Source: Brevundimonas mediterranea
Lineage (GTDB): Bacteria; Pseudomonadota; Alphaproteobacteria; Caulobacterales; Caulobacteraceae
Reading direction: 5' to 3'
DNA: 64,000 bases
Assembly: GCF_011064825.1 (NCBI RefSeq)
Contig: NZ_CP048751.1
Location: 1,922,001-1,986,000, forward strand
The number at the start of each line of letters is the position of its first letter. Within the stretch, counting starts at the first letter, position 1. The notes under the pieces were generated by a model, which saw nothing but the letters and a program-made list of their open reading frames with translations, did no database searches and had not been told where the DNA came from. Shown piece after piece: positions 273 to 16,610 of this stretch. The translations under genes and the position numbers were made by a program.

Positions 273-333
273 GGGGTCCTTATTCGACGCCGATCACACC
301 GCTAACGGGGTCCCTTTTCCACGCCGATCCACA
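273..333 (-). repeat. Two terminal repeats of the IS21-family element
   Basis: On the minus strand the outer repeat (333-307) begins TGTGGATCGGCGTGG and ends GGGACCCC. The inner repeat (298-273) begins TGTGATCGGCGTCG and ends AGGACCCC. They differ at a few positions and are about 8 bp apart. Such repeats act as transposase binding sites in IS21 elements. The outer one is read through as the last codons of the adjoining HEPN-like gene. Confidence 0.7.
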
Positions 334-1351
334 GCCAGAGGTCGGCGAGCGGCTGAGAGGCGATTGCGGCGACCAAATTTTCCCGATTGAGGCCGGCGAT
401 CAGCGGCAGTAGCGCGGCGCGGAATTGTGGGACAGTCACGCCTGCCAGAATGCGGTAGTCAGCGAGCGCCGCGGGGTCGGCGTTGTCGATGGTCGCTTGA
501 AGGGCCGTCCGAGTCGGCTCCTGAAGCTGCGGCCAGAAATCCGGAAAAGCGGCGATGAACGCGATGGCGCGAGGGCGGTTCGCCGGCTCGAGGTTGTCTA
601 TGAGCCTGACGATCGCCAGCGATATATCCGGCCAGGCCTCAGCGGCGCGTTCGCGCACCGCGACCAGCGAGGGGATTATCTTGCGATGGAGCGGCTCCCA
701 TTGCGCGGGCACGCCCTTGAGAATGGATTTTGCGAGCACCGTGCCGAAGTTGCGGACGTTCTGAGCGCGGACGCGCGCCAGGTAGCGCTGGTCGACATAG
801 TCCAGGATGCGCGCGTATTCCGTTGGAAAGCCGGGCGACTGCACGTCGATGTCGTACAGCTCGAAGATCGCTTTGCCTTGCAAGGGCTCCTGCGACAGAA
901 CAAGATCGACCGCATTGACGAGGTGAAGCCGCACCAGCTCGGGCGACGGCGCGAAGAGATCCGCCTCGGCCGAGAAGGCCGGGTGCGCGCAAAGATGTCT
1001 ATCTTCGCGCAGGCGCTCCAGATGCGTTCGGGCGATGCGATTGACGACCTGAGTGTTGGCCGTTGCGTCTTCGAGGATGCCTCCCTCAAGCTGAAGCAGC
1101 TTGGGGATATCGCCTGTGACGGTCGCGTTGTCCCACGCCTGAAGAAATGCCGTGGCGGCCGCATCGCCCATAGCGCTCAGCTCGCGATACTTGGCGATCA
1201 GGTCGTAGACCAGGGCGACCCAGGCTGAGGTGAGTGCGCCACGCAGCGCGCCGGCCTTGTAGGCTTTCACCGCATCAAGAAAATACACCTTCGACTGCGG
1301 ATGCCGAATTCGGGTGATGAGGATGTCGAGATCAACAAATCCAGTGTCCAC
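302..1351 (-). CDS. HEPN-like protein, C-terminus replaced by IS21 end
   Basis: Last gene of a four-gene minus-strand cassette, 3 bp downstream of the preceding gene. The 349-aa product has an alpha-helical N-terminal half (residues about 25-160) with the motif R118-H-L-C-A-H123, which fits the R-x4-6-H signature of HEPN ribonuclease domains. The rest is helical and unrecognised. The final ten or so codons (W-I-G-V-E-K-G-P-R, stop at 302) are encoded by the terminal repeat of the IS21 element, so the native C-terminus is lost. HEPN RNases are common effectors in toxin-antitoxin and defence systems. That role is inferred here from one motif and the neighbours. An unrelated helical protein is possible. 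Confidence 0.6.
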   Translation of the reverse strand: MDTGFVDLDILITRIRHPQSKVYFLDAVKAYKAGALRGALTSAWVALVYDLIAKYRELSAMGDAAATAFLQAWDNATVTGDIPKLLQLEGGILEDATANTQVVNRIARTHLERLREDRHLCAHPAFSAEADLFAPSPELVRLHLVNAVDLVLSQEPLQGKAIFELYDIDVQSPGFPTEYARILDYVDQRYLARVRAQNVRNFGTVLAKSILKGVPAQWEPLHRKIIPSLVAVRERAAEAWPDISLAIVRLIDNLEPANRPRAIAFIAAFPDFWPQLQEPTRTALQATIDNADPAALADYRILAGVTVPQFRAALLPLIAGLNRENLVAAIASQPLADLWLWIGVEKGPR

Positions 1352-1354
1352 GGT

Positions 1355-2206
1355 TCAGACCCCTCCAATTATGTGTCGGTCCCCGCCGAGCGGGATGATC
1401 CAGCCACCAGCGCGGTCCGGTCGGGCGACCGCGAGCGGTCGCGGAAAGGTCTGGCGTGTGAGCGTGCGCAGCGCCTGTGCGAGTTCGGCATGGCCAAGGG
1501 GCTCGATCAGGTTGGCGACATGCAGGCGGAGCAGCCCGATGAACGGGGCGTCCTTGTCTTGCGGATCAATGGGAACGCCCTCGTCGATGGGATCGCGAAC
1601 CGACAGGTGAGCATCAGCGGGATTGGAATTGGCCACGCCCCAACGGGTGGCGACCGCGATCCGCTTTACGGTGACCTTTTGGCCTTTGACCGTCACGTCG
1701 ATGCGCCCGGCTTGTGTCCAGGCGCGCGCGAGTGCTTTCGCGGGGCCTCCCGGGTCGTGACAGCTCTTGGCCTCCGCGATCGTGAGCGAGGTCAGATCGG
1801 ATTTGCATGCGATCCAGTCAGGGAGGTCGCCTCGGGCGAGGCGCTTGATCCTGGCCTGCTTGCGGCGATCGAGATCGATCACTTGGTTGCCGAGATGGGC
1901 GAAAACGGAGAGGTCAAAATATCGTTCGAGATAAGCGCGGGCGACGAACCGCCCGAACAGGCCCGACAACGCGACCTTCACTTCGCGCGCCTGGCCCAGC
2001 GGCTGCCTGAAGAGGAAGGATGTGCCCGCGCCGGTCGGGGCGAGGAGAGCATCCAGGATCGACCAGGCGCCATAGGCTGCGCCCGGCGTCTGGAGCACTT
2101 CGCGGATGCCGGCGTCTTCGATGTCGGAGACGTCCAGCGCGATGGTCGCGCCCGGGAACGGGTCCAGTGATGGCGGCGTGAAGTTGTAGATGAAGGTTCG
2201 GGTCAT
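1355..2206 (-). CDS. Conserved unknown protein with PD-(D/E)xK nuclease-like motif
   Basis: Third gene of the hipB-hipA cassette. Its ATG overlaps the hipA stop (ATGA, 2203-2206), which suggests translational coupling. The 283-aa protein has a helix (residues 84-100), a basic stretch (about 114-125), then P129-D130-W and, after a short strand, E145-A-K147. Spacing and order resemble the D...(D/E)xK core of PD-(D/E)xK nucleases. No signal peptide or membrane segment is visible. No family is recognised with certainty. A nucleic-acid-cleaving or DNA-binding partner of the HipA kinase is inferred from context. Confidence 0.55.
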   Translation of the reverse strand: MTRTFIYNFTPPSLDPFPGATIALDVSDIEDAGIREVLQTPGAAYGAWSILDALLAPTGAGTSFLFRQPLGQAREVKVALSGLFGRFVARAYLERYFDLSVFAHLGNQVIDLDRRKQARIKRLARGDLPDWIACKSDLTSLTIAEAKSCHDPGGPAKALARAWTQAGRIDVTVKGQKVTVKRIAVATRWGVANSNPADAHLSVRDPIDEGVPIDPQDKDAPFIGLLRLHVANLIEPLGHAELAQALRTLTRQTFPRPLAVARPDRAGGWIIPLGGDRHIIGGV

Positions 2207-3450
2207 AGCGCCAGCGCCCGCTTGAGATCATCGTGCTCGAAGGCGCTGGCCATCCGGGTAATTTCGGCGGAGCGGGCGCCGACGGCCTTGGCGGTGTCAC
2301 GCCACGTCGCGGTCACGGTCGCGACCTCTTTGATGATGGCGCGGGCCTGCTGCAGCGTGAGGCCGAAGAACTCCGAAGCCGCCTCAAGCAGGTCGAGCGA
2401 GCAAGTGCCCTCATCGAGGTCGATGTTGGTCGTCAGCACACGCGCCTTGAGGTCGGTGGGCACAGGGTTGAGGTCGTAAGCGGGAGAGAGGGACCATCCC
2501 GTCTTGCCGAGCCAAAGGAAGCCATGGTTGCGCAGGTGATCATCGACATTGGAAATCAGCACGTTGAGGACGACCCGCCGATAGAGGGCATGAGCGTCGG
2601 TCTTCCCCTGAGCGCCATGTTGCGTAAGCGCGTCGACGATCTCCGGGTAGCTGCCGCGCTCGCCGTCCTTGGCGCCCATCATCGCCATGGCTGACAGGAA
2701 AGGCGTGCGGATCGGGCCGGCGCGATCGAAGCGCCGCGACAGCATCACCGCCTTGCCGGCGACCTCAATGAGTTCATGGTGAGGGGTGGTGATGCCCGCC
2801 TGGCCAGCCAGTCGGAGCGCGATCTCTTCCCACGTCTCTATGCTGTATTCGTCGGTCTCCTTCGGAAATTTGGCGATGGAGAGGTGTCCGTGCTGGTCGA
2901 TGACCGACGCTTTGGGCCGGGCCCCGCCCAGGGAAGAGCCGGGGGCGAAGATGAGTTGAAGGTCCTCGTCCGTTTCCTCGTCGCGGAGGACCCGTTCGGT
3001 GATCTGGAGCAGCCGCCCGAGTTCGATCAGGGCGGGGACGCCGGCGCGGATCGGGGCCTGGAACATATCTTCGCCCGCCCAACGAAATCTGAGGGCCCCC
3101 AGGCGGGTCTCGTCGGCGACGCCGAGCAGGTAATCGCTTTCCGCAAGGGTGCGAACGGCGCGGCCTTCGCGTTCGGCAAGGCGGCGTTCGGCCCGTTGCA
3201 TAAGACGTCGCCCCCATGTGTCGGGCGCTGAGTCTCCGATGGAGCCGAAAGTCGCCAGTCCGGCAGGAGGGGCGAAGGCACCGCGGGTCAGGGCAAGGGC
3301 AGGCTCTAGCGAGAACCGGTCTGGATCGGCGAGCCACGCGCCATCATATTCGAAAAGGATGGTCTCCGTGCCTCGAACGCGATTGCTCCTCGCCAGGCCG
3401 ATAGGGCGCGTGCGTCCATCCAGGTCGAGATGTACCTCAAAGTCAGTCAT
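2203..3450 (-). CDS. hipA: HipA-family serine/threonine kinase toxin
   Basis: The product is 415 aa, starting MTDFEVHLDL. The start was placed at 3450 because the upstream in-frame sequence only encodes the antisense of hipB, and the family starts with a short HipA N-terminal domain. Visible HipA features are the flexible G-S172-S-L-G-G-A-R-P-K loop (residues 171-180), a lysine in SIAKFP (K194), the catalytic N301-x-D303-D-H-x2-N308, and the metal-binding D326 in SPAYDLNP. Known HipA kinases phosphorylate aminoacyl-tRNA synthetases (GltX in E. coli) and cause growth arrest. The start overlaps the hipB end by 8 bp, as in other hipBA modules. All catalytic residues are present, so the kinase is probably active. 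Confidence 0.9.
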   Translation of the reverse strand: MTDFEVHLDLDGRTRPIGLARSNRVRGTETILFEYDGAWLADPDRFSLEPALALTRGAFAPPAGLATFGSIGDSAPDTWGRRLMQRAERRLAEREGRAVRTLAESDYLLGVADETRLGALRFRWAGEDMFQAPIRAGVPALIELGRLLQITERVLRDEETDEDLQLIFAPGSSLGGARPKASVIDQHGHLSIAKFPKETDEYSIETWEEIALRLAGQAGITTPHHELIEVAGKAVMLSRRFDRAGPIRTPFLSAMAMMGAKDGERGSYPEIVDALTQHGAQGKTDAHALYRRVVLNVLISNVDDHLRNHGFLWLGKTGWSLSPAYDLNPVPTDLKARVLTTNIDLDEGTCSLDLLEAASEFFGLTLQQARAIIKEVATVTATWRDTAKAVGARSAEITRMASAFEHDDLKRALAL

Positions 3451-3778
3451 CGCGAGATGATCCGCCTGTTCGCTTGAGATGGACGCGCTTGGGCAGTTCC
3501 GCGCTGGCCAGCGCTTGTCCGACCGGGTCGTTGCCGATGTCGGCGATCTGGCCCAGACCGTCGAGCAGGCCGAGCGCCTGAAGGACGCCAGCATAGATGC
3601 CGATGCTGACATTGGTGTCGCCAGCCTCGATCTTCTGCAGGGTCGAACGGGACGTGAAGGCGCGCTCCGCGACGACGGCCATTGGCAGCCGCCGACGCCG
3701 ACGGGCGTCGTGGATGTCCGCGCCGAGCTTTCGCATGACGCGCCGCACGGCGGCGGGAGGCGTATGTGGTGTAGGCAT
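3443..3778 (-). CDS. hipB: HipB-like XRE-family antitoxin/repressor
   Basis: A 111-aa helix-turn-helix protein. HTH residues are about 33-58, with the recognition segment S43-R-S-T-L-Q-K-I-E-A-G, typical of Cro/C1-XRE regulators. The ATG at 3778 is preceded by an AAGGTG ribosome-binding site at good spacing. An alternative GTG 15 bp upstream would place that site inside the gene. As antitoxin it would bind HipA and repress the operon. It overlaps hipA by 8 bp and leads the four-gene cassette hipB-hipA-PD-(D/E)xK-HEPN. Confidence 0.85.
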   Translation of the reverse strand: MPTPHTPPAAVRRVMRKLGADIHDARRRRRLPMAVVAERAFTSRSTLQKIEAGDTNVSIGIYAGVLQALGLLDGLGQIADIGNDPVGQALASAELPKRVHLKRTGGSSRDD

Positions 3779-3790
3779 TTGACACCTTCG

Positions 3791-3817
3791 CACTACGGAT
3801 TGGCCTAATATGTAGTA
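3791..3817 (-). promoter_or_regulatory. Possible HipB operator/promoter of the hipBA cassette
   Basis: Just upstream of hipB, CACTAC (3791-3796) and GTAGTA (3812-3817) form a short inverted repeat around an AT-richer stretch that includes TATTAG on the minus strand. XRE antitoxins commonly bind such dyads over their own promoter. The arms are only five bases of exact match, so this is tentative. Confidence 0.3.
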
Positions 3818-3854
3818 CGAAGCTTACAATTTATCTACCCCTCGCAGAGAGCGC

Positions 3855-4406
3855 CTAGCGGGCTTGCTTAACTGCTTTCATGATGCTCAAGGCGACCGAG
3901 AGGCTCAGACCCATGTCCAGGCACAACTTGAAGAACTCTTCCGAAGCCTGATGGGCCTCCAGACCGTATTGACGCACGAGTTTGCGGGCGTGTTTGCCAA
4001 GCGGGATAGCGTCGCTGAGCGAGACCCACTCGGGATTGCCGGCTTGTTCCTCGAAATCGAGAATAAGCGCTTCCGGCAAGTCGGCGCCGAGCAATATGTA
4101 GCGAAGGTGCTTGATGAAATTCGGGTGCGTATAGATGTCTTCGCCCCGGCAGTTATTGCGTTCGAACCCGCCCTTTCTCGACGCTTTGATCCGGCCGGGA
4201 TTGTATTCGACATCGTTCCAGTAGCGGACCCTCTGGGGCGGCACGCCGTCTCGCTCGCTGAGCGAAGCCAGGAGGGCGAGAATGGGTTCGGCATTCGCGT
4301 TGTAGGCGGCATGGGCTTCATCGTGATTGCGATGAGACAGGCGCAGGTCGATCTTGGAGACCAGCGCTTCTTCGGCCTCGGTTAGGGCTATGCGGTACTT
4401 ATCCAT
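3855..4406 (-). CDS. Unknown 183-aa soluble protein
   Basis: I do not recognise a family. The protein starts MDKYRIALTEAEEALVSKID and is rich in charged helices. It has a compact central segment with a YWNDVEYNPGRI motif (residues 62-73) and a C-terminal helical bundle (about 145-180) containing E-E-F-F-K-L-C-L-D. There is no signal peptide, membrane segment or metal cluster. It lies on the same strand as hipB, 76 bp upstream of it, and downstream of the Mrr-like pair. A 200-bp gap separates it from that pair, so it may have its own promoter. Island context suggests an accessory or defence role only by association. Confidence 0.6.
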   Translation of the reverse strand: MDKYRIALTEAEEALVSKIDLRLSHRNHDEAHAAYNANAEPILALLASLSERDGVPPQRVRYWNDVEYNPGRIKASRKGGFERNNCRGEDIYTHPNFIKHLRYILLGADLPEALILDFEEQAGNPEWVSLSDAIPLGKHARKLVRQYGLEAHQASEEFFKLCLDMGLSLSVALSIMKAVKQAR

Positions 4407-4606
4407 GCGATCCTTTCATCTGTCTTCAGCAGGGGATGACCAAACAATGCCGCCAAGGCTGATGGCAGCGAAACCGGCGGTGCAGGCGCCCGCACGTCAG
4501 AATGTCACGAGATAGGCGGGGTAGAACAACTCAACGGGCCCAAGCACATGCCTGTCCTTGAGGACGCTGGCGCGCCCTGCGCGTACTTCAGGGCCGCACG
4601 GCTTTT

Positions 4607-5539
4607 TCACCAGGAATGTTGCGGGAGCGGTGCAAGGTCAGCGGCAAGGAGCAATCGATTCAAGGTTGTGACCACGCGACGCCGCTTGTCTTCCAAAGCC
4701 TGTTGAACCGCGAAGTTCGGGATCATCAGCCAGTCATTGTGCTGGCTTACATCGCCGTTTCGCTCGGCTCTCAGCAAGGTGGTCCTGAAGTCGTTCAGCT
4801 CACCGGCGAGAGCCTCAGCTCCAAGACGAAGATCGTCATCGTTGAGCGTGCGAACCCCACCAATAGCCCGTTGCACCCGTCTCCCCTCCCTGTCGAGAAG
4901 ATCACCGGTCGCGAGAAGGCGCTGAGTGTCGATTAGGGCCTGTTTGAAATTGTCGGCATGCTCGCAGCTCAACGGGTCGCGAAACGCAGGACGATCAAAA
5001 GCGACCGCGAAAAGCCCGAGCAGTTTCTGATCGCGCTCGGGCGCCGTGAGCCCCTGGGCGACGGTCCGATAATATTCATCCTGCAGCCGTGCATCGCGAT
5101 TCAGGACCGCGTCATAGTCGCCCCAGGACCAGGTCAGGACACCGAACTTTCCAACCTTCTTGCGGGCAGCCGCCATGGCGGCCGCCTTGTTCTGGATTGC
5201 CCGGTCCGGCTTGGCCGTCGTCGCGAGAATAAACAGGTCCAGTTTCGCCGGATGGCTCTCGGCGCGCCGGACAGCGTCCGTCAACGCCTTGACCGTGATG
5301 GCCCCGCCAGCCAGAAGCACATTGTCCGCGTCGCGCTCATCGCGCTGTTTGCACTGGATGCCGATTGTGCGGCCATCTTCCGCCTGAACGAGCACGTCGA
5401 GTCCGTTCTGGCTCTGGCCCTGCCGCCCGACCTTCTGCGGCGTCGGGTCGCCGAACACGACACGGGCCGCGCCTACGGTCAGGTCTTCGAACTGCTGCCA
5501 ATAGGCGGGCGGAGCGTGCCCCTGTGTAAGATCAGGCAT
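4607..5539 (-). CDS. Mrr-type restriction endonuclease-like protein
   Basis: A 310-aa protein whose N-terminus has the Mrr/PD-(D/E)xK arrangement: E18 in YWQQFEDLT, then G46-L-D48-V-L-V and G60-I-Q62-C-K64, the D...QxK core seen in Mrr-like nucleases. The remaining 200 residues are helical and unassigned. Mrr-like domains cut DNA and are frequent effectors in anti-phage systems. It follows a 108-aa gene after a 12-bp gap, so the two are likely an operon. The product could be a type IV restriction enzyme or the effector of a signalling system. No cyclase or sensor is adjacent. Confidence 0.7.
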   Translation of the reverse strand: MPDLTQGHAPPAYWQQFEDLTVGAARVVFGDPTPQKVGRQGQSQNGLDVLVQAEDGRTIGIQCKQRDERDADNVLLAGGAITVKALTDAVRRAESHPAKLDLFILATTAKPDRAIQNKAAAMAAARKKVGKFGVLTWSWGDYDAVLNRDARLQDEYYRTVAQGLTAPERDQKLLGLFAVAFDRPAFRDPLSCEHADNFKQALIDTQRLLATGDLLDREGRRVQRAIGGVRTLNDDDLRLGAEALAGELNDFRTTLLRAERNGDVSQHNDWLMIPNFAVQQALEDKRRRVVTTLNRLLLAADLAPLPQHSW

Positions 5540-5551
5540 GGGGCGTCCTTA

Positions 5552-5878
5552 TCAGCGCAAGCGGGCGATGTTTGCGACGTAGCCGCCCAGAGAGGTTGGC
5601 TGCGTGACCTTGCCCCAGTACCGGGCGCTCGCGCTTGACACCTTTCGGAGGATCAGGAGGTCGAGATCAGAATCGAGGCCGGCGACCACCGCCTTGCCGA
5701 CCACGTCGATGTCATCATCGGCTTCGAACAGAATGAACGAGGTCGTCTCGTCCCAGTAGCCCGAGTCGAAGACCTGGACGGCCGCATAGATCGACTGGCG
5801 GCGAAGAGACTCGACGCCTTTCGCTGCAGAACGTTCAGTCGCGACCATGAAGCTCAGCCAATAGTTTGCAGTGGCCAT
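5552..5878 (-). CDS. Small unknown protein paired with the Mrr-like nuclease
   Basis: A 108-aa soluble protein starting MATANYWLSFMVATE. A GTG/ATG-like start five codons upstream is possible. Alternating strands and helices (F-I-L-F-E-A-D-D-D-I-D-V-V-G-K, then D-L-D-L-L-I-L-R-K-V) suggest a small alpha/beta, perhaps ferredoxin-like, fold. The family is not recognised. It is the first gene of a two-gene minus-strand operon with the nuclease 12 bp downstream. This arrangement would suit a regulator, antitoxin or specificity subunit. Confidence 0.6.
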   Translation of the reverse strand: MATANYWLSFMVATERSAAKGVESLRRQSIYAAVQVFDSGYWDETTSFILFEADDDIDVVGKAVVAGLDSDLDLLILRKVSSASARYWGKVTQPTSLGGYVANIARLR

Positions 5879-6068
5879 GTGCGGCACCCCCATCCCGTCG
5901 AAAACTCGACCATCGGAGATATGGATACGGCAAAGCTAGGCCGCAATCGCGGGTGGCCGTATCGCGCGACTACCGCGCAACGGTCGCGCACAGGAGGATC
6001 AATCCCTTTGTGCGGTTCGCCCTATGTTCTCGCCGTGCTAGGGCTGACGCGTCAACCCGGAGCCGGCC

Positions 6069-6941
6069 GTGAAACGCCTTTTCGATCATTACGAGCAGAT
6101 GACCCACAACGCGGTCAAGCCGGTCGCCGACCGATTCGGCCTGTCCATTTTTCCGAAAGTTCGGGTCGCGGACGTGATTGATCCCGACGAGGTCGGGGCA
6201 ACCGGCGACCTCAAGACCTACGCGCTAAAAGCGCACTTCGATTTTGTGATCTGTCGCAATGACTGTGACCCGGTCTACGCGATCGAGTTCGACGGAGCGT
6301 CGCACCGAAGTGTCCGCCAGCGGGAGCGAGACGCCAAGAAGGACGAGCTCTGCAAGCGAGATAACCTGCCGATCCTTCGGATTCACAGCGAGCATCTAAC
6401 TACTGGCTACAGCCATCTCACTTTGCTTGGCTGGCTGGTCGAAGTGGCCGAGATGAAGGTGGCGTTCGACGCGGAGCAAGAAGCAGGGCGGATTTCTTGG
6501 GAAGAGGATTTCGACCCGTTTTTCCTTATGAGCATTGAGCCGGGCGAGCCGAAGTTTCCTTACTGGATCTCCGGGTTGCCGCGGGTGCGCATCGAGCGGC
6601 TGCACAAGCGCGGCCTGATCCACCATCCGTGCGGATCCGGCTTCTTTGGTCTGACGGACGACAAGCTTTATCGAGGCGCAGAACTGATCGCCGTCACCCC
6701 GACGGTCGGAATCCTGCTCAAGGGCGCGATGCGCGATCAGAACTTCCCGGCGCCCTTTGGCGACCTCCTGAGTGAAATTCTGTCCGTCAAGTTGGCCGAC
6801 CGTGTCCAGCACTGGGTTCAGAGCGGCGAGGGCGGCAAACCGATGGAGGCTGTTTATGCGGAAGCCCGCGACCTGATGGGGGGCCTCCAGCTCCGAGGGA
6901 GTCATTCCTGCGGCGACGTCACAGATCGGTGGCACCTGTGA
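6069..6941 (+). CDS. DUF2726-like PD-(D/E)xK nuclease-fold protein
   Basis: A 290-aa protein. Residues 57-105 carry HFDFVICR, then A71-I-E73-F-D75-G-A-S-H79, R87-D88-x-K90-K, and P101-I-L-R-I. This is the pattern of DUF2726/Vsr-like restriction-fold domains, in which E/D and the D-x-K lysine form the active site. The C-terminal half is unassigned. The start ATG at 6069 follows 190 bp of non-coding sequence shared with the divergent small gene. The next gene starts 24 bp downstream on the same strand, so the two are probably co-transcribed. Confidence 0.6.
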   Translation: MKRLFDHYEQMTHNAVKPVADRFGLSIFPKVRVADVIDPDEVGATGDLKTYALKAHFDFVICRNDCDPVYAIEFDGASHRSVRQRERDAKKDELCKRDNLPILRIHSEHLTTGYSHLTLLGWLVEVAEMKVAFDAEQEAGRISWEEDFDPFFLMSIEPGEPKFPYWISGLPRVRIERLHKRGLIHHPCGSGFFGLTDDKLYRGAELIAVTPTVGILLKGAMRDQNFPAPFGDLLSEILSVKLADRVQHWVQSGEGGKPMEAVYAEARDLMGGLQLRGSHSCGDVTDRWHL

Positions 6942-6965
6942 CATTGTTTTCCGGAAAGGGCGAGC

Positions 6966-7784
6966 ATGCAGTTCCGTCATGAGGCCCGTCAGGCACTTGC
7001 GCGGGCGAAGGCGCTGCTGGCCCAAGGTGACGACCAGGCGCTACGCTATGCCGCCTTGGAACTGCGCCTGACGCTCGAGGCGATCGCTTACGACCGGCTG
7101 CACGACTACAGGCGAGATGTCCCGCCCAGCGTCTATGAGACGTGGCAGCCACCTAAGGTTCTGAGGCTGCTTCTTGAAATCGACCCTCGGGCCGATACTC
7201 CACAGACCGTCAAGATCGCCCGCAACCTGGCTCCCGGAGTGGATGACGCGCGCGCCGCTGTCTTCTTCGAGCAGCCCATCCGCCAAGCGACGTTGAAGGA
7301 CAATTACGGCGCCATTGGGAGCTACCTGCACTTCCCGACCCTGAAGCAGCTAAATGAAAAGGGCGGCCCCGATTTCGAAAAGTTGCGGCGGCGATGCGAA
7401 GCCTTGGTTGAGGAACTCGATCCTGTCGTCACGCCAGCGAAGACCTCCTTCATTATGGGGACCTTCTCTCACTGCCCGTGCTTCAGATGTGGCGAGGACA
7501 TGCGCAAACGCTTGCCGCGCGACGAAGCAGGTCAGTTTCCTGCAAAATGCGTAGCCTGCGGCGCTGACCATCTCGTCTTCTTCGAGGAGGACGGGGAGGG
7601 AAAATGGACAACGAAAGCCTTTCCAGCGCCATGCGCACACGAGAATTGCGACGGTATCCATCGGATTTTTCCCGACGAGATCCGCCAGGGTTTCCAATGG
7701 ACCTGTGACGCGTGCGGCCGCGATAGCGTGTTCGACTTCGCGATATGCCCAGTTCTTCCGCCCGAGACATCCAGCCAATGCTGA
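6966..7784 (+). CDS. Unknown protein, helical N-terminus plus C-terminal zinc ribbons
   Basis: A 272-aa protein. The N-terminal 160 residues are helical, with RYAALELRLTLEAIAYDR (28-45) and a GSYLH motif near 118-122. The first of these resembles HEPN/DUF4145-type helices. The C-terminus has four cysteine pairs: C172-x2-C175, C195-x2-C198, C223-x4-C228 and C247-x2-C250, consistent with two zinc ribbons. It directly follows the DUF2726-like gene on the same strand, 24 bp downstream. A nucleic-acid-binding role is plausible. The function is unknown. Confidence 0.55.
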   Translation: MQFRHEARQALARAKALLAQGDDQALRYAALELRLTLEAIAYDRLHDYRRDVPPSVYETWQPPKVLRLLLEIDPRADTPQTVKIARNLAPGVDDARAAVFFEQPIRQATLKDNYGAIGSYLHFPTLKQLNEKGGPDFEKLRRRCEALVEELDPVVTPAKTSFIMGTFSHCPCFRCGEDMRKRLPRDEAGQFPAKCVACGADHLVFFEEDGEGKWTTKAFPAPCAHENCDGIHRIFPDEIRQGFQWTCDACGRDSVFDFAICPVLPPETSSQC

Positions 7785-7912
7785 AGGGTCGGATTGATCG
7801 AAATTGCAGGTTTATTGGTCGGCCTATTGGGGCGCCCTGAGTGTCGTAACTTGCGGCCTGTCAAACTCGGATTGGATCCTTATGGCATACCTGCCCATCA
7901 GAGAGACGCTTG

Positions 7913-9205
7913 CTAAGTCACCTTAGGACTGAAGCGCTCGCCAATCCGTTCCGCAAGCGCCCGAACTGGGTCATCGCTCAAATGGGCGTACCGTTCTGTA
8001 GCGCGGCTGTTGGCGTGTCCCAGCGCCTTGCCGATCATCGGGAGGCTGGCCCCGTCGGCCAAGGCGAAGCTTGCGAAACTGTGGCGCAGGTCGTGGATGC
8101 GCACGCCTTCCAGCTTGGCTTTGGGGAGCACCTTGTCGCGCCAGATCTTGGACTCGGACGTCGCATATCCGTTGTCGCCCTTGGTGGCCGGGAAGACGAA
8201 CTGGCTTCGCCCGCGCGTCTTGTAGAGACGCTGCAGGATTCCGAAGGCCATGTCGTTGAGCGAGATCCGACGATCCCCCGTGCGCCCACCGGCCTTGGTG
8301 CGGCTCGGCGGCAGCACGAGCCGGCGCCGGTCGAAGTCGACCTCCGTCCAGCGCAGACCAGCGATCTCGTTGCGCCGCGCACCCGTCAGAAGCAGAAGCC
8401 GATAGACCGCGCCCTGCCGTTCGGAGATCGTCGCATCCGCTTCCAGAGCGTCGAGCGCGGCGATCAGGTCCTGGGCCTGGGACTCGGACAGGAAGCGCTC
8501 GACCGCCGGTCGGCGCTTGCGTTCGACCTTCGCGCAGGGGTTCGGGCCGGCGAAATGGCCCTTATCGATCGCCCAGTTGAAGGTCGCCCGCAGGGTGGAA
8601 TAGGTGCGGTCAGCGATGCCTGCTCCGCCCTTCACGATGGATCGACCACGAAATTTGGTCTTTACATCCTTGGCGGTCTTCCCGGCCGTGATCGATCGGA
8701 TCATCCCGGTGATGTGGTCGCGGGTGACCGTATCAAGCGCCATCTTCCCAAGCAGGGGCGCGACGTGGCGCTCGAGGTTGGTCCGGTCCATGGCCCATGA
8801 CGAATCCCGTTTGGTCGGTTTGTCGTCCGGCCCTTTCTCCAGATACAACTCGACCAGGCCTTTGACGGTGAGGCCCTCGATGCGCCTGCGGGCTTCTCCG
8901 GGATCGATGCCGCGCCGCGCATCGACCACCACCGACGCCGCCTCCTTGCGAGCCCGATCCGCCGTGAGCTTGTCCGGCCCATCCCCATGCTCGCCAAGCG
9001 TCAGCCAGCGCTGGATCCCGCGGACCCGATATTTGATGGCGAACATCCTTCGGACAGGCTTGGCGGCATGGCCCTGTCGGGTTTCGGTCCCGGGATAGAT
9101 CCGGAGGCAGAAGCCTGCGATCTCGCTGTCCCAAATTCGACCCTCGCCGCTCTCCGGAACGGGCGCGCTCTCAACCACGCGCTTGGTGAGTTTTTGCTTC
9201 GTCAT
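7913..9205 (-). CDS. Tyrosine recombinase/integrase (P4-type) of the island
   Basis: A 430-aa integrase with an N-terminal arm-binding DUF4102-like domain (about 1-95), a SAM-like core-binding domain (about 110-220) and a C-terminal catalytic domain. All catalytic residues are visible: R277 in TGARRNEIAGL, H371-D-L-R374-H375, H397 in LGHANSRATERY, and nucleophile Y406. It lies 172 bp from the tRNA-Gly att copy at 9378 and reads away from it, the usual layout for integrative elements. It is probably the enzyme that inserted the island into tRNA-Gly. The length is normal and no disruption is seen. Confidence 0.93.
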   Translation of the reverse strand: MTKQKLTKRVVESAPVPESGEGRIWDSEIAGFCLRIYPGTETRQGHAAKPVRRMFAIKYRVRGIQRWLTLGEHGDGPDKLTADRARKEAASVVVDARRGIDPGEARRRIEGLTVKGLVELYLEKGPDDKPTKRDSSWAMDRTNLERHVAPLLGKMALDTVTRDHITGMIRSITAGKTAKDVKTKFRGRSIVKGGAGIADRTYSTLRATFNWAIDKGHFAGPNPCAKVERKRRPAVERFLSESQAQDLIAALDALEADATISERQGAVYRLLLLTGARRNEIAGLRWTEVDFDRRRLVLPPSRTKAGGRTGDRRISLNDMAFGILQRLYKTRGRSQFVFPATKGDNGYATSESKIWRDKVLPKAKLEGVRIHDLRHSFASFALADGASLPMIGKALGHANSRATERYAHLSDDPVRALAERIGERFSPKVT

Positions 9206-9237
9206 GGCGATGGAAATCTACGCTCATTTCCGAGCCA

Positions 9238-9257
9238 CCGCTACCACTCCGCTACCA
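9238..9257 (+). repeat. Direct repeats CCGCTACCA, candidate integrase arm sites
   Basis: CCGCTACCA occurs twice, at 9238-9246 and 9249-9257, between the start of the intact integrase and the first att copy. Closely spaced short direct repeats at this place are typical arm-type binding sites for the integrase N-terminal domain. The sequence differs from the TGGGAAGC repeats around the second, defective integrase. That is consistent with two integrases of different arm specificity. Confidence 0.4.
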
Positions 9258-9377
9258 ACTCAAGTGAAACCGGGCGAAACGCTCCGTAACCGGATAAACA
9301 AGAAAACCTAGTTAAAACAACATACAAAACTGATTTTTGGAACGTGCTGAAAAGCCCGGAAATGCTGATCCCCAACC

Positions 9378-9422
9378 TTGCCAAGGTTGGGGTCGAGAGT
9401 TCGAATCTCTTCGCCCGCTCCA
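9378..9422 (+). repeat. att site, 3' half of tRNA-Gly(GCC), copy 1
   Basis: These 45 bp run from TTGCCAAGG (anticodon loop and 3' anticodon stem) through the T-arm (GAGAGTTCGAATCTC) to the acceptor end and CCA of a tRNA-Gly(GCC). The 5' half of the tRNA is absent upstream, so this is not a gene but an attachment-site duplicate. An identical copy lies at 10607-10651. It marks the right end of the element that carries the integrase at 7913-9205. Confidence 0.88.
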
Positions 9423-9474
9423 GTCGAGACCAAGGTAGACAAGCAGTTAGCCTTCCCCTCCGGGGTCCCAAACT

Positions 9475-11656: not shown

Positions 11657-13195
11657 ATGGCCATGCTGCGGCTGGTGCTGGGCGACCAGCTGTCCGATGG
11701 CCTGTCGGCGCTGGAGGGGCTTGAGCCCGGGGTCGATGCGGTCCTGATGGCCGAGGTGCGCGACGAGGCGGCCTATGTCCGCCATCACAAGCAGAAGATC
11801 GCCCTGACCTTCGCGGCCATGCGCGGCCATGCAGAGCGGCTGGCGGCGCGGGGCGTGCGGGTGCGCTATGTGCGGATCGACGATCCTGAGAACAGCGGTT
11901 CGATCACCGGGGAACTGGCTCGGGCTCTGGACGCCGGCGACTATGGGCGGGTCGTTCTGACCGAATGCGGCGAATGGCGGCTGGCTGAGCATCTGGCGGC
12001 CTTTGCGGAAGGGGCGAGCCTGCCGGTTGAAATCCGCGAGGATCGACGTTTCGTCTGTTCGCACGACCGGTTCCGGCGCTGGGCCTCGGGCAAGTCGCAG
12101 CTGCGGATGGAGTTCTTCTATCGCGAGATGCGGCGCGAGACCGGCCTGCTGATGGACGGCGCGCAGCCGGAGGGCGGGCGCTGGAACTATGACGCCGAGA
12201 ACCGCAAGAAACTGCCGCGCGGCATGACGCCGCCGTCGCGGATGCGCATTCCGCCGAACCCGACTGCGCAGGACGCCATCGCCGATGTCGAGCGGCTGTT
12301 TGGGGACCATTTCGGGTCGCTGGAGGCCTTCGGCTGGCCGACGACGGCGGCGGAGGCCGAGGCGGTGCTGGCGCATTTCCTGGAGGCGATCCTGCCGTCG
12401 TTTGGCGACTGGCAGGACGCCATGGCGGAGGATCAGCCGTGGATGTGGCACGGGCTGATCTCGACCTCGCTGAATCTGGGCCTGCTCGATCCGCTGGACG
12501 TTTGCCGCCGGGCCGAGGCGGTCTATCGCGCCGGCCGCGCGCCCCTGAACGCCGTCGAGGGCTTCATCCGCCAGATCCTGGGCTGGCGGGAGTTCGTTCG
12601 CGGGATCTACTGGCTGAAGGCGCCGGAGTATCGGCTCAGGAACTTCCTGGACGCGGACCGGACCCTGCCGTGGTTCTACTGGTCCGGCGAGACGGACATG
12701 GCCTGCGTCGCCGATGCGGTGAAGACGACGCATGACAACGCCTACGCCCACCATATCCAGCGGCTGATGGTGACGGGAAACCTGGCCCTGTTGCTGGGTG
12801 TCCATCCCGACGCCGTGGACGATTGGTACATGGCCGTCTACGCCGACGCCTATGAGTGGGTGGAGATGCCCAATACGCGGGGCATGGCCCTGTTCGCCGA
12901 CGGCGGAATCGTGGGGTCCAAACCTTATGCGGCGTCAGGGGCCTATATCGACCGGATGAGCGATTACTGCGGCGGCTGCCGCTATGACGTGAAGAGCAAG
13001 AGCGGCGACGCGGCCTGCCCCTTCAACCGACTTTACTGGGGCTTTCTGGAGCGCAATCGGGGCCGGCTGAGGGAGAATGTGCGGCTGGCCATGCCGTATC
13101 GCACCCTGGACGGTTTCGGCGTAGCCAGGCGCGCGGCGCTAGCGGCCGAGGCGGAAGCCTGTCGCAAACTGCTGGGCGCGACGCCAAAGGATTGA
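11657..13195 (+). CDS. Fe-S bacterial (6-4) photolyase / cryptochrome-like protein
   Basis: A 512-aa flavoprotein of the FeS-BCP family (deoxyribodipyrimidine photolyase-related protein). It begins MAMLRLVLGDQLSD. The four [4Fe-4S] ligands are visible at C350 (DMACVADAV), C438 and C441 (YCGGCRY) and C454 (ACPFNRLYWGF). These positions are the same as in the characterised Agrobacterium PhrB. PhrB repairs UV-induced (6-4) photoproducts using FAD and a ribolumazine antenna. Co-transcription with the upstream DCC gene is likely, with a 3-bp gap. The full length and all ligands suggest an active light-dependent DNA repair enzyme. Regulation is not evident. Confidence 0.93.
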   Translation: MAMLRLVLGDQLSDGLSALEGLEPGVDAVLMAEVRDEAAYVRHHKQKIALTFAAMRGHAERLAARGVRVRYVRIDDPENSGSITGELARALDAGDYGRVVLTECGEWRLAEHLAAFAEGASLPVEIREDRRFVCSHDRFRRWASGKSQLRMEFFYREMRRETGLLMDGAQPEGGRWNYDAENRKKLPRGMTPPSRMRIPPNPTAQDAIADVERLFGDHFGSLEAFGWPTTAAEAEAVLAHFLEAILPSFGDWQDAMAEDQPWMWHGLISTSLNLGLLDPLDVCRRAEAVYRAGRAPLNAVEGFIRQILGWREFVRGIYWLKAPEYRLRNFLDADRTLPWFYWSGETDMACVADAVKTTHDNAYAHHIQRLMVTGNLALLLGVHPDAVDDWYMAVYADAYEWVEMPNTRGMALFADGGIVGSKPYAASGAYIDRMSDYCGGCRYDVKSKSGDAACPFNRLYWGFLERNRGRLRENVRLAMPYRTLDGFGVARRAALAAEAEACRKLLGATPKD

Positions 13196-13273
13196 GCGGG
13201 AACCTCGACTGGAACCTCGACGCGGGCTGCGGGATTTGCTTGGCTGTTCCGCAAATCGTGCACGAGGCCGCCT

Positions 13274-14032
13274 GTGATCCCTGTTCGTCGCCCCTTCCGT
13301 GTCCTGGCCGTCGCCGCCGTTGCGGCCTCGGCCCTGTCCGCCTGCGCCTATAACGAGGCGCTGGGGCGCAATCAGCTGCTGCTGGTGGACAACGCCGCCC
13401 TGTCGCAGCAATCGACCGCCGCCTGGCGCGAGGCCATCGCCAAGCCGGGCGTCCAGACCTCCGGCGCCCAGGTTGATCGGATACGGCGTGTCGGCGGGCG
13501 GCTGGTGCAGGCGGCGGGCCTGGGCGGCCGGACCTGGGACTACGCCGTCTTCAGCGAGAAGAGCCCCAACGCCTTCGTCCTCCCGTCCGGCCAGATCGGC
13601 GTGACCGACAGCCTGCTGGCCCTGGTCCAGAACGACGACCAGCTGGCCAGCGTCATCGGTCATGAGATCGGCCATGTCGTCGCCAACCACGCGGCCGAGC
13701 GCGCCTCGAGCCAATCGCTGACCGCTGTCGGTCTGGCGGCCGTGGGCGGTGCGGCGGGACGCTATGGCGATGCGGTCAACGCCTATGGCGGTCTGGCGGC
13801 CCAGTACGGACTGCTGCTGCCCTATTCGCGGCGCGATGAGCTGGAGGCCGACCGGCTGGGCGTGGACTATATGGCGGCGGCGGGGTTCAGGCCCTCACAA
13901 GCCGTCGCCCTGTGGCGACTGATGGCGGCGCAACGCCAGGCCAGCGTCCCGCAGTTCGCCTCGACCCACCCGTCGGATGCGACGCGGATCGATCTGCTGC
14001 AGCAATATATCGCCAGCAAGGGCTGGAACTGA
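13274..14032 (+). CDS. M48 family metalloprotease, lipoprotein
   Basis: A 252-aa protein starting at GTG 13274. The N-terminal signal sequence ends in a lipobox (LSAC, Cys about 26), so it is likely an outer- or inner-membrane-anchored periplasmic protein. The M48 zinc motif HEIGH occurs in SVIGHEIGHVVANHAAE, and the third ligand region is ELEADRLGVDYMAAAG (about 195). It resembles LoiP/YcaL-type small M48 peptidases involved in envelope quality control. It converges on a small gene on the other strand with no gap between the stops. Confidence 0.9.
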   Translation: MIPVRRPFRVLAVAAVAASALSACAYNEALGRNQLLLVDNAALSQQSTAAWREAIAKPGVQTSGAQVDRIRRVGGRLVQAAGLGGRTWDYAVFSEKSPNAFVLPSGQIGVTDSLLALVQNDDQLASVIGHEIGHVVANHAAERASSQSLTAVGLAAVGGAAGRYGDAVNAYGGLAAQYGLLLPYSRRDELEADRLGVDYMAAAGFRPSQAVALWRLMAAQRQASVPQFASTHPSDATRIDLLQQYIASKGWN

Positions 14033-14287
14033 TCAGACCTTGATGTCGAGATAGGTGCCCGGGCGCATGATCCGGGGCGTTTCCCCATCGGCTGCCGGCG
14101 GCGGCGCAATCGGGCGGGTCGCAGTGGCCACCGGCGCCTGGGCCTGAATCGGTGTGGTTTGAACCTGGGCCGCCTGGACCTGATTCATCGCGGCGCGGAA
14201 GAAGGCGGCCTGGGCGTTTCGCGCAGACGGAGCCTCGCCCACGGACGTGGGCAGGGACTGCGGCAAACCGGGGCGAATCGCGCTCAT
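14033..14287 (-). CDS. Small conserved proline/alanine/glutamine-rich protein of unknown function
   Basis: An 84-aa product starting MSAIRPGLPQSLPTS, with an upstream TTG alternative two codons away. It has a low-complexity Q/A/P-rich middle and the tail RIMRPGTYLDIKV. No signal peptide or domain is recognised. Its stop abuts the M48 gene stop. The tail may be a short interaction motif, but this is speculation. Confidence 0.55.
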   Translation of the reverse strand: MSAIRPGLPQSLPTSVGEAPSARNAQAAFFRAAMNQVQAAQVQTTPIQAQAPVATATRPIAPPPAADGETPRIMRPGTYLDIKV

Positions 14288-14345
14288 GCCCAATCGTTAA
14301 CGCATCCGGAGCGATCAATCGTTAACAAGGCCTCTCGAAAGAGGG

Positions 14346-14912
14346 TTAACGCGCTTTTTCGTTCGGCAGGGGTCTCGGCGGGGCCTGCATGGAGGCGACG
14401 AGTCGTTCGATGTCGGCGTCGTTCAGCAGGGGACCGGACTGTTTGGCGGTGATCCGGCCCATGGCGTCGACGGCGAAGGTCTCGGGCACGCCGGATATGC
14501 CCAGGTCCAGACCGGCCCGACCCTCGCGGTCCACCAGAACCATGGAATAGGGGGCGCCCAGCTCGTCCAGGAAGGCGCGGGTGGCGACCGGCTCGTCCTT
14601 GTAGGCCACGCCGACGACGGCGATCCCCCGCGCCTTCAACGCCAGCAGCTTGGGGTGTTCGATCCGGCAGGGGGCGCACCAGGAGGCGAAGACATTGACC
14701 AGCATGGGCCGGCCCACGCCCGCTGTCTTCAGGTCCAGATTGCCGGGTCCGGCGGTATCGCCGGTCAGCATGGGCAGAACCGTTTCGGGGATGGGCTGGC
14801 CGACCATGGCGTCGGGCTTGAAGGCCGGATCGCGTTTCAGCGACCAGCCGATGAACAGGGCGGCGAGCGCGCTGAGCACCACCAGGGGCAGGAGGGCCAG
14901 CCAGCGGTTCAT
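14346..14912 (-). CDS. ccmG: Cytochrome c maturation thioredoxin CcmG/DsbE
   Basis: A 188-aa membrane-anchored periplasmic thiol-disulfide oxidoreductase. ATG 14912 was chosen because it gives an immediate transmembrane anchor (LALLPLVVLSALAALFIG) and a 4-bp overlap with ccmD. The active site is W-C-A-P-C at about residues 75-79 (ASWCAPCRIEH), and GISGVPETFAVD is the conserved cis-proline loop. It reduces apocytochrome c or CcmH so that haem can be attached. It is the last gene of ccmABCD-G here. ccmE, ccmF and ccmH are not in the window. Confidence 0.93.
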   Translation of the reverse strand: MNRWLALLPLVVLSALAALFIGWSLKRDPAFKPDAMVGQPIPETVLPMLTGDTAGPGNLDLKTAGVGRPMLVNVFASWCAPCRIEHPKLLALKARGIAVVGVAYKDEPVATRAFLDELGAPYSMVLVDREGRAGLDLGISGVPETFAVDAMGRITAKQSGPLLNDADIERLVASMQAPPRPLPNEKAR

Positions 14913-15127
14913 TCTTTTGGCCCTACCGCGCTTTGCGCTACTTGAGGGCGATTGGAGTCTGCGGCGTCTGATGTCGCGCTCTGGTCTTTTTCCAGACGCT
15001 CGAGTTCGCGCTTCCATTTGCGGGAGGCGATGACGGCGCGGGCGACCAGGGCCGCCAGCACCAGGGTGCTGACGCCCCAGGCGGGCCAGACGAAGGCGGC
15101 GTAGGGGGTCATGTCGAGGTCGAGCAT
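14909..15127 (-). CDS. ccmD: Haem exporter protein CcmD
   Basis: A 72-aa protein with a single membrane span (residues about 10-33: YAAFVWPAWGVSTLVLAALVA) and a charged cytoplasmic tail starting RKWKRELERLE, the CcmD signature layout. CcmD stabilises CcmABC and helps release holo-CcmE. It lies 1 bp after ccmC and overlaps ccmG by 4 bp. It is slightly longer than usual because of a low-complexity tail. Confidence 0.88.
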   Translation of the reverse strand: MLDLDMTPYAAFVWPAWGVSTLVLAALVARAVIASRKWKRELERLEKDQSATSDAADSNRPQVAQSAVGPKE

Positions 15128-15128
15128 C

Positions 15129-15848
15129 TTACGCCTCCAGCGCCTTTCGGGCGCGCAGGGTCAGGACGCGGCGACGGCGGACCTCGGTGCGGATCGCCGT
15201 CAGCCACAGGGCCGAAAACAGCACGCCATAGGCCGCCAGCATGGTCAGGAAGGGCGGCAGATAGACCGGGTCCAGGCCCGAGGATCCGGGGGTCAGGAAG
15301 CTGGCCGGCTGGTGCAGGGTGTTCCACCAGTCGACCGAGAATTTGACGATGGGCAGGTTGATCAGGCCGACCAGGCCCAAGACGGCGGCGGCGCGGGCGC
15401 CCTTCTGCTCGTCGTCGATCGAGGCCCGCAGCGCCATATAGCCGAGGTAGAAGAGAAACAGGACCAGCACGCTGGTCAGGCGCGCGTCCCACACCCACCA
15501 TGTCCCCCACATCGGTTGGCCCCACAGCGAGCCGGTGAACAGGGCCAGGGCCGTGAAGGCGGCGCCGGGCAGGGCGGCGGCGCGGGCGGCGGCGTCGGCC
15601 AGGGCGTGGCGGAACACCAGGGCGAAGAAGCTGGAGACGCCCAGGGCCGAATAGGCGCCCAGACCCCAGACGGCGGCGGGCACATGGACGAACATGATCC
15701 GCACCGTGTCGCCCTGCTGATAGTCGGCAGGGACGGTGAAGCTGAGCCAGGTCCCGACCGCCAGCAGCACGGCCGCGACCGCCCAGAGCAAGGGCGTCAG
15801 GGGGCCGGTGAAGGCCATGAAACGCTGCGGGTTGGACAGGCCGAACAT
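15129..15848 (-). CDS. ccmC: Haem transport protein CcmC
   Basis: A 239-aa inner-membrane protein with six predicted spans. It carries the tryptophan-rich haem-handling motif GTWWVWDARLTS and flanking periplasmic histidines (FVHVPAA, WWNTLHQPAS). CcmC attaches haem to the chaperone CcmE. It sits in operon order ccmA-ccmB-ccmC-ccmD-ccmG, 54 bp after ccmB. Confidence 0.95.
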   Translation of the reverse strand: MFGLSNPQRFMAFTGPLTPLLWAVAAVLLAVGTWLSFTVPADYQQGDTVRIMFVHVPAAVWGLGAYSALGVSSFFALVFRHALADAAARAAALPGAAFTALALFTGSLWGQPMWGTWWVWDARLTSVLVLFLFYLGYMALRASIDDEQKGARAAAVLGLVGLINLPIVKFSVDWWNTLHQPASFLTPGSSGLDPVYLPPFLTMLAAYGVLFSALWLTAIRTEVRRRRVLTLRARKALEA

Positions 15849-15902
15849 GGCGTCAGCGATTACGCGGGGTCGCGACGGCGGGCAAGCGGCGGATCACCTC
15901 CG

Positions 15903-16610
15903 TCATCCCTGGGCGTTCCTGACCGCCGCCGCCCCGGCGAAGGCGGCGATGACGCCGGCGAACAGGACATAGGCGCCCAGGAAGGCCAGGGCCGGGGCGG
16001 GCGACTGGCCCGAGGCGGCGCGTTCCAGCGCCCCGGCGCCGAAGACGACCGGGGGGATAAACAGGGGCAGGACCACGACGGCGATCAACAGCCCGCCCCG
16101 CTTCGCCCCAAGGGCCAGGGCGGCGCCCAGGGTTCCGGTGCAGGCGAAGCCCGCCCCGCCGATCAGGGCCGACAAGGCGGTGAGCGGGACCAGGGCCGGC
16201 GGCAGGCCCAGGGCCAGGGCCGCGACCGGGGCGGTGAGGGCCAGGGGCAGGCCGACGGCGATCCACTGGGCCAGGGCCTTGATCAGAACGACCGATTCCA
16301 GCGGCAGATGGCCAAGGGCCAACAGGTCCAGCGCCCCGTCCTCCAGATCCCGCTCGAACAGCCGCTCCAGCGACAGCAGCGAGGCCAGGGCCAGGGCCAG
16401 CCAGGCGATCCCTCCCGCCACGGGCGAAAGCGTGCGCGGATCGCCCCCGACAGCCAGGGGCAGGACGGCGGTCAGACAGGCGAAGAAGCCGCAGGCCAGC
16501 AGGGGGCCGCCCCCGCCGCTCCAGGCCAGGTCCAGCTCCCGCTCCAGCAGCACGCGCGTCGCGCCGCGCAGGCCGGGCGGGCGGGGTTCGGCGTCTATCT
16601 GACGGCTCAC
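15903..16610 (-). CDS. ccmB: Haem exporter permease CcmB
   Basis: A 235-aa six-span membrane protein of the CcmB family ([14 protein letters not shown] at the start, then alternating hydrophobic helices). The start is GTG 16610, which overlaps the ccmA stop, as is usual for this operon. Upstream in-frame sequence is only antisense of ccmA. With CcmA it forms an ABC transporter needed to release holo-CcmE. Confidence 0.92.

Follow-up and report, generated by a model that had tools for sequence, protein, structure and literature searches.

The 64,000-nucleotide stretch of Brevundimonas mediterranea contig NZ_CP048751.1 analysed here (positions 1,922,001 to 1,986,000, hereafter the window) carries on its minus strand a four-gene cassette consisting of hipB, hipA, a gene for a PD-(D/E)XK-like protein (g3) and a gene for a HEPN protein (g4). 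On balance, this cassette appears to be a decayed member of a toxin–antitoxin (TA)-controlled, effector-swapping family of defence operons in Alphaproteobacteria. The reading draws on features seen in the sequences themselves, namely the anatomy and damage of the locus, the recurrence of hipB-hipA-g3, the varied defence genes behind g3, the conservation of an operator-like repeat upstream of hipB and the presence of the same repeat at neighbouring qat operons. Phage infection would be the trigger of such an operon, and hipBA, g3 and the effector would act jointly.

Recurrence of hipB-hipA-g3 with changing downstream genes

One scan of 84,980 species genomes with two peptide patterns recovered 63 g3 loci on 61 contigs from at least 18 named families, three of the loci sharing one contig. 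The g3 gene directly follows hipB-hipA in 48 of the 63 loci and a hipA fragment in one; 13 loci lack both, and one lies at a contig edge. Comparison with the close relatives L005-L008 revealed conservation from just upstream of hipB to the g3 stop codon. The first recognised gene behind g3 is most often PDC-S06 (38 loci), eight of these genes being partial or cut by a contig edge; PDC-S06 matches reach E-values of 1.9e-185 in L007 and 3.3e-191 in L078. The remaining loci carry a gene termed c4 (four loci), the Gabija gene gajA (one), DSR1 (one), the g4 family PD-T7-3 (one) or some other gene (17), and one ends at a contig edge. The link to defence suspected from the window sequence is thus borne out by known defence genes behind g3.

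For eight of the 17 loci with other genes (L025, L044, L047, L053, L055-L058), the scan covered a downstream open reading frame (ORF) on the same strand, which was not in every case the first one. A ZacC/ZacB protein was found in L057, a SIR2 protein in L058, a weak restriction-like match in L056 and a further HipA_C protein in L025, as well as ParB-like and strawberry-notch-helicase proteins farther off in L047; the family scan of the downstream ORF gave no match in L044, L053 and L055. The 355-aa protein c4 (for example, L012 11865-12932), which lies behind S06 in many loci and directly behind g3 in three Bradyrhizobium loci, returned no significant relative in family and PDB searches. As well, a type III restriction-modification pair is present behind hipBA-g3-S06 in L006-L008 and L026 (~12000-16340), and a Pseudogemmobacter bohemicus contig holds three hipBA-g3 cassettes (L029, L030, L034) with identical g3 and an S06 remnant.

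A g3 tree, built from 51 of 64 rows after broken g3 copies and L069 had been left out, requires five changes for hipBA presence, at least four of them forced by the starred branches, and nine changes for effector type when the other genes are taken as one type. Within one g3 clade, close relatives precede Gabija (L005), PDC-S06 (L006-L009) and PD-T7-3 (L046). Outside the window, g4 was found behind g3 in the Brevundimonas vesicularis locus (one of the 63 genome loci) and on the Sphingomonas AAP5 plasmid; because this plasmid keeps a hipA fragment, g3 and g4 in order, the hipBA-g3-g4 arrangement was present in two lineages. Among 385 genomes of the class, g3 occurs in three, close or distant hipA in 16 and g4-like genes in three, the window genome being counted in each. 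The sequence-only reading had taken the four genes as probably working together. As a conserved four-gene system this was rejected, given the single genome locus and the one plasmid. What is supported is hipB-hipA-g3 as a recurrent, co-oriented unit in the 48 loci; g4 does not share in this conservation, and the window copy is degenerate. Held against the refuting condition of the sequence-only reading, that homologues of genes three and four occur mainly apart from hipBA, gene three stands, being found mainly with hipBA, and gene four fails within the contexts read. Further g3-g4 pairs may exist, with P0026/P0132 and P0029/P0130 as candidates because the contigs within each pair are equally long.

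Judged by its residues, g3 belongs to a PD-(D/E)XK-like family that neither Pfam nor NCBIfam names; no Pfam match reached the cut-off and no NCBIfam match was obtained. Residues P129, D130, E145, K147 and Q165 are invariant in 84 aligned g3 sequences, which agrees with the D130...E145-x-K147 signature and the nuclease-like character first proposed from the letters. A structure model of an intact relative, compared with known folds, gave weak support to the PD-(D/E)XK assignment; g3 is a putative nuclease. Two distant g3 relatives were also observed, one (L070, 4676-7759, Sphingobium pYGP1) beside an AbiJ-type Abi protein, and the other (L079, 6863-9066, Rhizobium johnstonii pRL8) next to a protein of 304 aa that matches HEPN weakly.

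The g4 product is, by its profile matches, a member of the known HEPN defence family PD-T7-3, deposited in PDB as 'Dandelion', and it is predicted to be an RNase. The window protein matches the PADLOC PD-T7-3 profile at 1.2e-29, the intact relative P0122 covers positions 5-401 of the 432 profile positions, and the intact relative P0121, searched as a single sequence, matches PDB entry 9wxf at 1.1e-16. This last value was used, and the value of the A7 profile against 9wxf (3e-122) was set aside as circular, because one member of A7, L098, comes from the viral contig that also gave L100, and L100 is a 100% match to the P2-EC30 protein. PD-T7-3, Dandelion and ORF1 of the Z-region of phage P2-EC30 form one family, since ORF1 has the Dandelion sequence as far as the alignments reach and scores 558 bits against the PD-T7-3 profile. 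Moreover, R118, A122, H123 and P124 do not vary across 39 aligned g4 sequences, so that both the R118-x4-H123 motif and the HEPN-like reading of gene four stand. Foldseek searches of g4 returned E-values above 0.001 throughout, and the 50 matches listed were mainly helical-repeat proteins. The available text of one report describes PD-T7-3 protection of E. coli as stronger against T-even phages than against T7 (PMC9519451), and a review, in its accessible part, assigns a HEPN domain to PD-T7-3 (PMC10952713).

The HipB-type operator and adjoining qat operons

An inverted repeat with the consensus CTTCGTGCTAC-N15-GTAGYRCGAAG lies upstream of hipB and is a putative HipB-type operator, where a promoter, HipB binding and repression might be expected. 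In the window, it occupies 3786-3822 (no strand assigned) as CTTCGTACTAC-N15-GTAGTGCGAAG, 7 nt upstream of hipB. Wherever a hipBA locus includes upstream sequence (47 loci), the repeat was found at hipB; it has zero or one mismatch in 44 and stands 6-8 nt from the gene in 46, and it is also present in 7/7 standalone plasmid hipBA pairs. Conservation upstream of hipB is 0.6-0.8 and falls to a background of 0.34-0.42 beyond -60.

Whole-genome scans with fixed spacing and three mismatches allowed were positive in 40 of 47 genomes; the genome of L057 has hipBA with the operator arms at a different spacing. Sites with at most one mismatch were located either at hipB, in 37 of 38 mapped loci, or at qatA, the 38th mapped locus (L027) lying at a contig break with its site on another contig. 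In six genomes a second site of this quality lies ~5.1 kb away, at the presumed qatA promoter. The other genomic sites comprise four stray ones with three mismatches and one with two mismatches at a hipB remnant, and a reversed-pattern control gave seven hits. In the window genome, the search at three mismatches returned a single site and no second HipB target. Viral contigs yielded exact matches only in L174 (4675-4712) and L175 (9594-9631), two contigs that share proteins; these repeats, which stand just behind a gene resembling tail sheath by eye, are probably hairpin terminators or chance occurrences.

Seven loci (L017-L022 and L044) are arranged as operator-qatABCD-operator-hipB-hipA-g3; qatD stops 56-76 nt short of hipB, and L019 has one more base between the arms. 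The Qat proteins were confirmed in L017, L019, L020 and L044, the qatA of L019 being frame-broken. S06 follows g3 in six of the seven loci, and the next gene in L044 was unrecognised. No operator at up to four mismatches was present in any of the seven qat loci whose fetched stretch lacks hipBA, one five-mismatch match being found inside qatA of L166, and blastn of the qat operator against plasmids gave matches only near hipB of two Methylocella plasmids. A second TA family stands in front of Qat on a Celeribacter ethanolicus plasmid (L169, 6120-8962), where a RES/Xre-MbcA pair precedes qatA with a 4-bp overlap; the HipB operator was looked for in this locus and was absent.

Tentatively, HipB might in relatives be a shared switch of the defence island, the same operator controlling two adjacent operons, qatABCD and hipB-hipA-g3-effector. 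Loss of HipB during infection would then free HipA and switch on the nuclease/ATPase or HEPN arm together with Qat, and hipBA-g3 would be a portable control-and-kill front end capturing PDC-S06, Gabija, DSR1 and PD-T7-3. Two observations weigh against a shared switch: the seven loci with the qat operator are related, their qatA genes being 92-100% identical, and may reflect one event; and L006 and L008 carry a 74% identical qatA downstream, behind the type III restriction-modification pair, without an operator site.

For the operon family as a whole, the proposed course begins with an autonomous hipBA pair that, along with its operator-bearing upstream stretch, would have become the front end of a g3/effector operon. 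The downstream slot would hold one interchangeable anti-phage effector, usually the PDC-S06 AAA/SMC-like ATPase and, in the window, the HEPN protein. HipB, with HipA, would repress this operon as well as a neighbouring qat operon that has the site. During infection, HipB would fall: infection might deplete or titrate HipB, thereby freeing the HipA kinase and raising expression of the nuclease and effector genes, and the outcome would be HipA-driven growth arrest combined with nucleic-acid attack by g3 and the effector. This course is proposed from the effector families involved and from hipBA biology, HipB acting in E. coli as repressor of the hip promoter and as antidote to HipA according to the accessible text of PMC13092281.

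Alternatively, hipBA may be only a stabilising TA pair placed before a nuclease/effector pair, with co-transcription as the only coupling. Such addiction cargo would agree with g3-S06 occurring without hipBA in 9 of the 63 loci and with hipBA standing alone on plasmids behind the same operator. The INDEPENDENCE of modules is seen in seven plasmid regions with hipB-hipA and no g3, which were picked from 25 listed hits for having no third gene annotated over hipA; the sequence of one (L119) stops ~100 nt behind hipA, and the absence of g3 there rests on the plasmid g3 search. Across plasmids, the best hipA match reaches at least 80% identity in 177 of 801 matching records (coverage unfiltered), and any g3 match is found in 29 records only. 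Against it, the ATGA type of junction between hipA and g3 is kept in 45 of 48 hipBA loci, and the operator also stands before qatA in seven loci. This explanation is considered rather unlikely.

Shuffling within defence islands was considered as well, whereby g3 and its neighbours would be independent defence genes recombining at a hotspot and the effectors would be neighbours rather than partners. The different systems behind close g3 relatives in the clade described above are compatible with such shuffling, as are the other g4-family genes read, which lie apart from hipBA and g3: no hipBA was seen in the stretches around nine of them, a subset of the g4 homologues that comprises two close relatives on plasmids, more distant ones on plasmids and phages, and L068. 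The spacing argues otherwise, in that S06 or a piece of it lies 62-109 nt behind g3 in 38 of the 63 loci, including one on a deep branch of the tree (L050), and g4 follows g3 after only 3 nt in the window and after 12 nt on the AAP5 plasmid. Independent recombination is regarded as improbable.

Anatomy and decay of the window copy

All four ORFs lie on the minus strand in the order read earlier from the letters, and the junctions reported then were confirmed: an 8-bp overlap of hipB and hipA, an ATGA overlap of hipA and g3, and a 3-bp gap between g3 and g4. The hipB gene (3443-3778, ATG start) encodes an intact 111-aa helix-turn-helix (HTH) antitoxin/repressor (Pfam HTH_31, 2.1e-7), and hipA (2203-3450, ATG start) an intact 415-aa HipA-family Ser/Thr kinase. 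The catalytic motifs attributed to HipA are upheld by a Pfam HipA_C match of 7.6e-45 and by the alignment of the D-x-H-x-x-N...YDL region with solved HipT structures; this stretch we take to be the HipA catalytic motif.

Judged against intact relatives, the window locus is a decayed copy in which two of the four genes are damaged. The g3 gene (1355-2206, ATG start) encodes 283 aa compared with ~374 aa in intact relatives, a net in-frame loss of 91 codons from the C-terminal part; its product matches residues 1-258 and the last ~25 residues of the relatives, with a junction near window position 1428/1429. The g4 gene (302-1351, GTG start) is native over 334-1351 and derived from an insertion sequence (IS) over 302-333. 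Its homology ends at about codon 339 of the ~455 in intact relatives, so that ~116 codons are gone and the C-terminal region is incomplete, which makes the window copy a truncated relative of PD-T7-3/Dandelion rather than a full member, and the native frame breaks at window ~334, the last ~10 codons being IS-derived. The right end of the responsible IS21-family element lies at 1-333 on the minus strand and contains the istA start, with terminal inverted repeats to ~304-335, and the element extends left beyond the window. Its identity is based on these repeats and on matches to istA (4.4e-91) and istB (1.8e-78) scanned in L071. The remainder of g4 was looked for beyond the far side of the element, and none was found.

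Window positions 334-9433 are 99.9% identical to B. vesicularis S00192 (L046). This relative shares the g3 deletion, but its g4 is complete, and its hipB is 100% identical; relative to S00192, ~2.8 kb has been lost beyond the IS21 element. The defence arm of the window copy is probably dead, and a plain hipBA TA pair is the likely surviving function in this genome, because only hipB and hipA are intact in the window. That the window genome runs a working four-gene multi-effector system is very improbable: the overlaps are tight, hipB and hipA are intact and the g3 catalytic and g4 HEPN motif regions remain in frame, but both g3 and g4 are cut short and the four-gene set is not conserved among the loci examined.

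The neighbourhood upstream of the cassette (6069-9205) resembles a defence island. One gene there (6069-6941) encodes a DUF2726 protein (PF10881, 4.9e-19), another (7913-9205) a tyrosine integrase (7.6e-24). A 310-aa protein encoded at 4607-5539 gave no match in Pfam, NCBIfam and PADLOC searches; its GLDVLVQ...IQCKQ stretch resembles by eye what we presume to be a restriction-endonuclease motif.

Known systems and implications

Like hipBA type II TA systems, the window cassette opens with an HTH antitoxin gene that overlaps the HipA_C kinase gene behind it, and an operator-like inverted repeat lies upstream; unlike them, the cassette family continues with a PD-(D/E)XK-like gene and an effector, and its operator recurs at qat in seven loci. 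Its g4 carries the HEPN R-x4-H motif and is homologous to PD-T7-3 (Vassallo et al. 2022, PMC9519451), Dandelion (9wxf) and P2-EC30 Z-region ORF1; unlike these, it is truncated and stands in an operon behind hipBA-g3, whereas the other members read lie apart. PDC-S06, a phage-defence candidate of PADLOC, is the usual gene behind g3 in relatives, where it has a nuclease-like upstream neighbour, but it does not adjoin the window cassette. In the seven relatives, Qat (QatABCD) adjoins hipB on its upstream side and is itself preceded by a HipB-type operator, whereas the window genome has no QatA at an E-value of 1e-40.

HipAD/DS-6 from DefensePredictor also places a HipA-family kinase in anti-phage defence (PMC13092281). 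Its partner, as the available text of that report has it, is a DUF3037/DUF1829 protein without HipB similarity, and that text mentions neither a PD-(D/E)XK gene nor a swappable effector. Membership in HipAD/DS-6 was rejected, neither g3 nor g4 having a DUF3037/DUF1829 Pfam match. HipBST is a three-gene operon with a HipA-like kinase, but its HipS antitoxin corresponds to the N-terminal part of HipA (PMC9325769, in the accessible text), and g3 has no such family match. Membership in HipBST was also rejected, as hipB overlaps hipA directly with no HipS-like gene between them and g3 has no Pfam or NCBIfam match that reaches a cut-off. Searches of open-licence PMC text turned up neither hipBA-g3-effector operons nor a qat operon under HipB control. 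The components are known, as are TA-linked defence operons in general; what was not found in that literature is a front end of hipBA-g3 combined with interchangeable effectors, or a HipB-type operator at qat.

The comparison adds a family of PD-(D/E)XK-like proteins whose genes precede several defence systems that are usually treated as self-contained. If the proposed control is true, hipBA would, beyond persistence and plasmid addiction, govern the transcription of anti-phage effectors and be coupled to them, and one antitoxin with two operators would constitute an island-level regulon.

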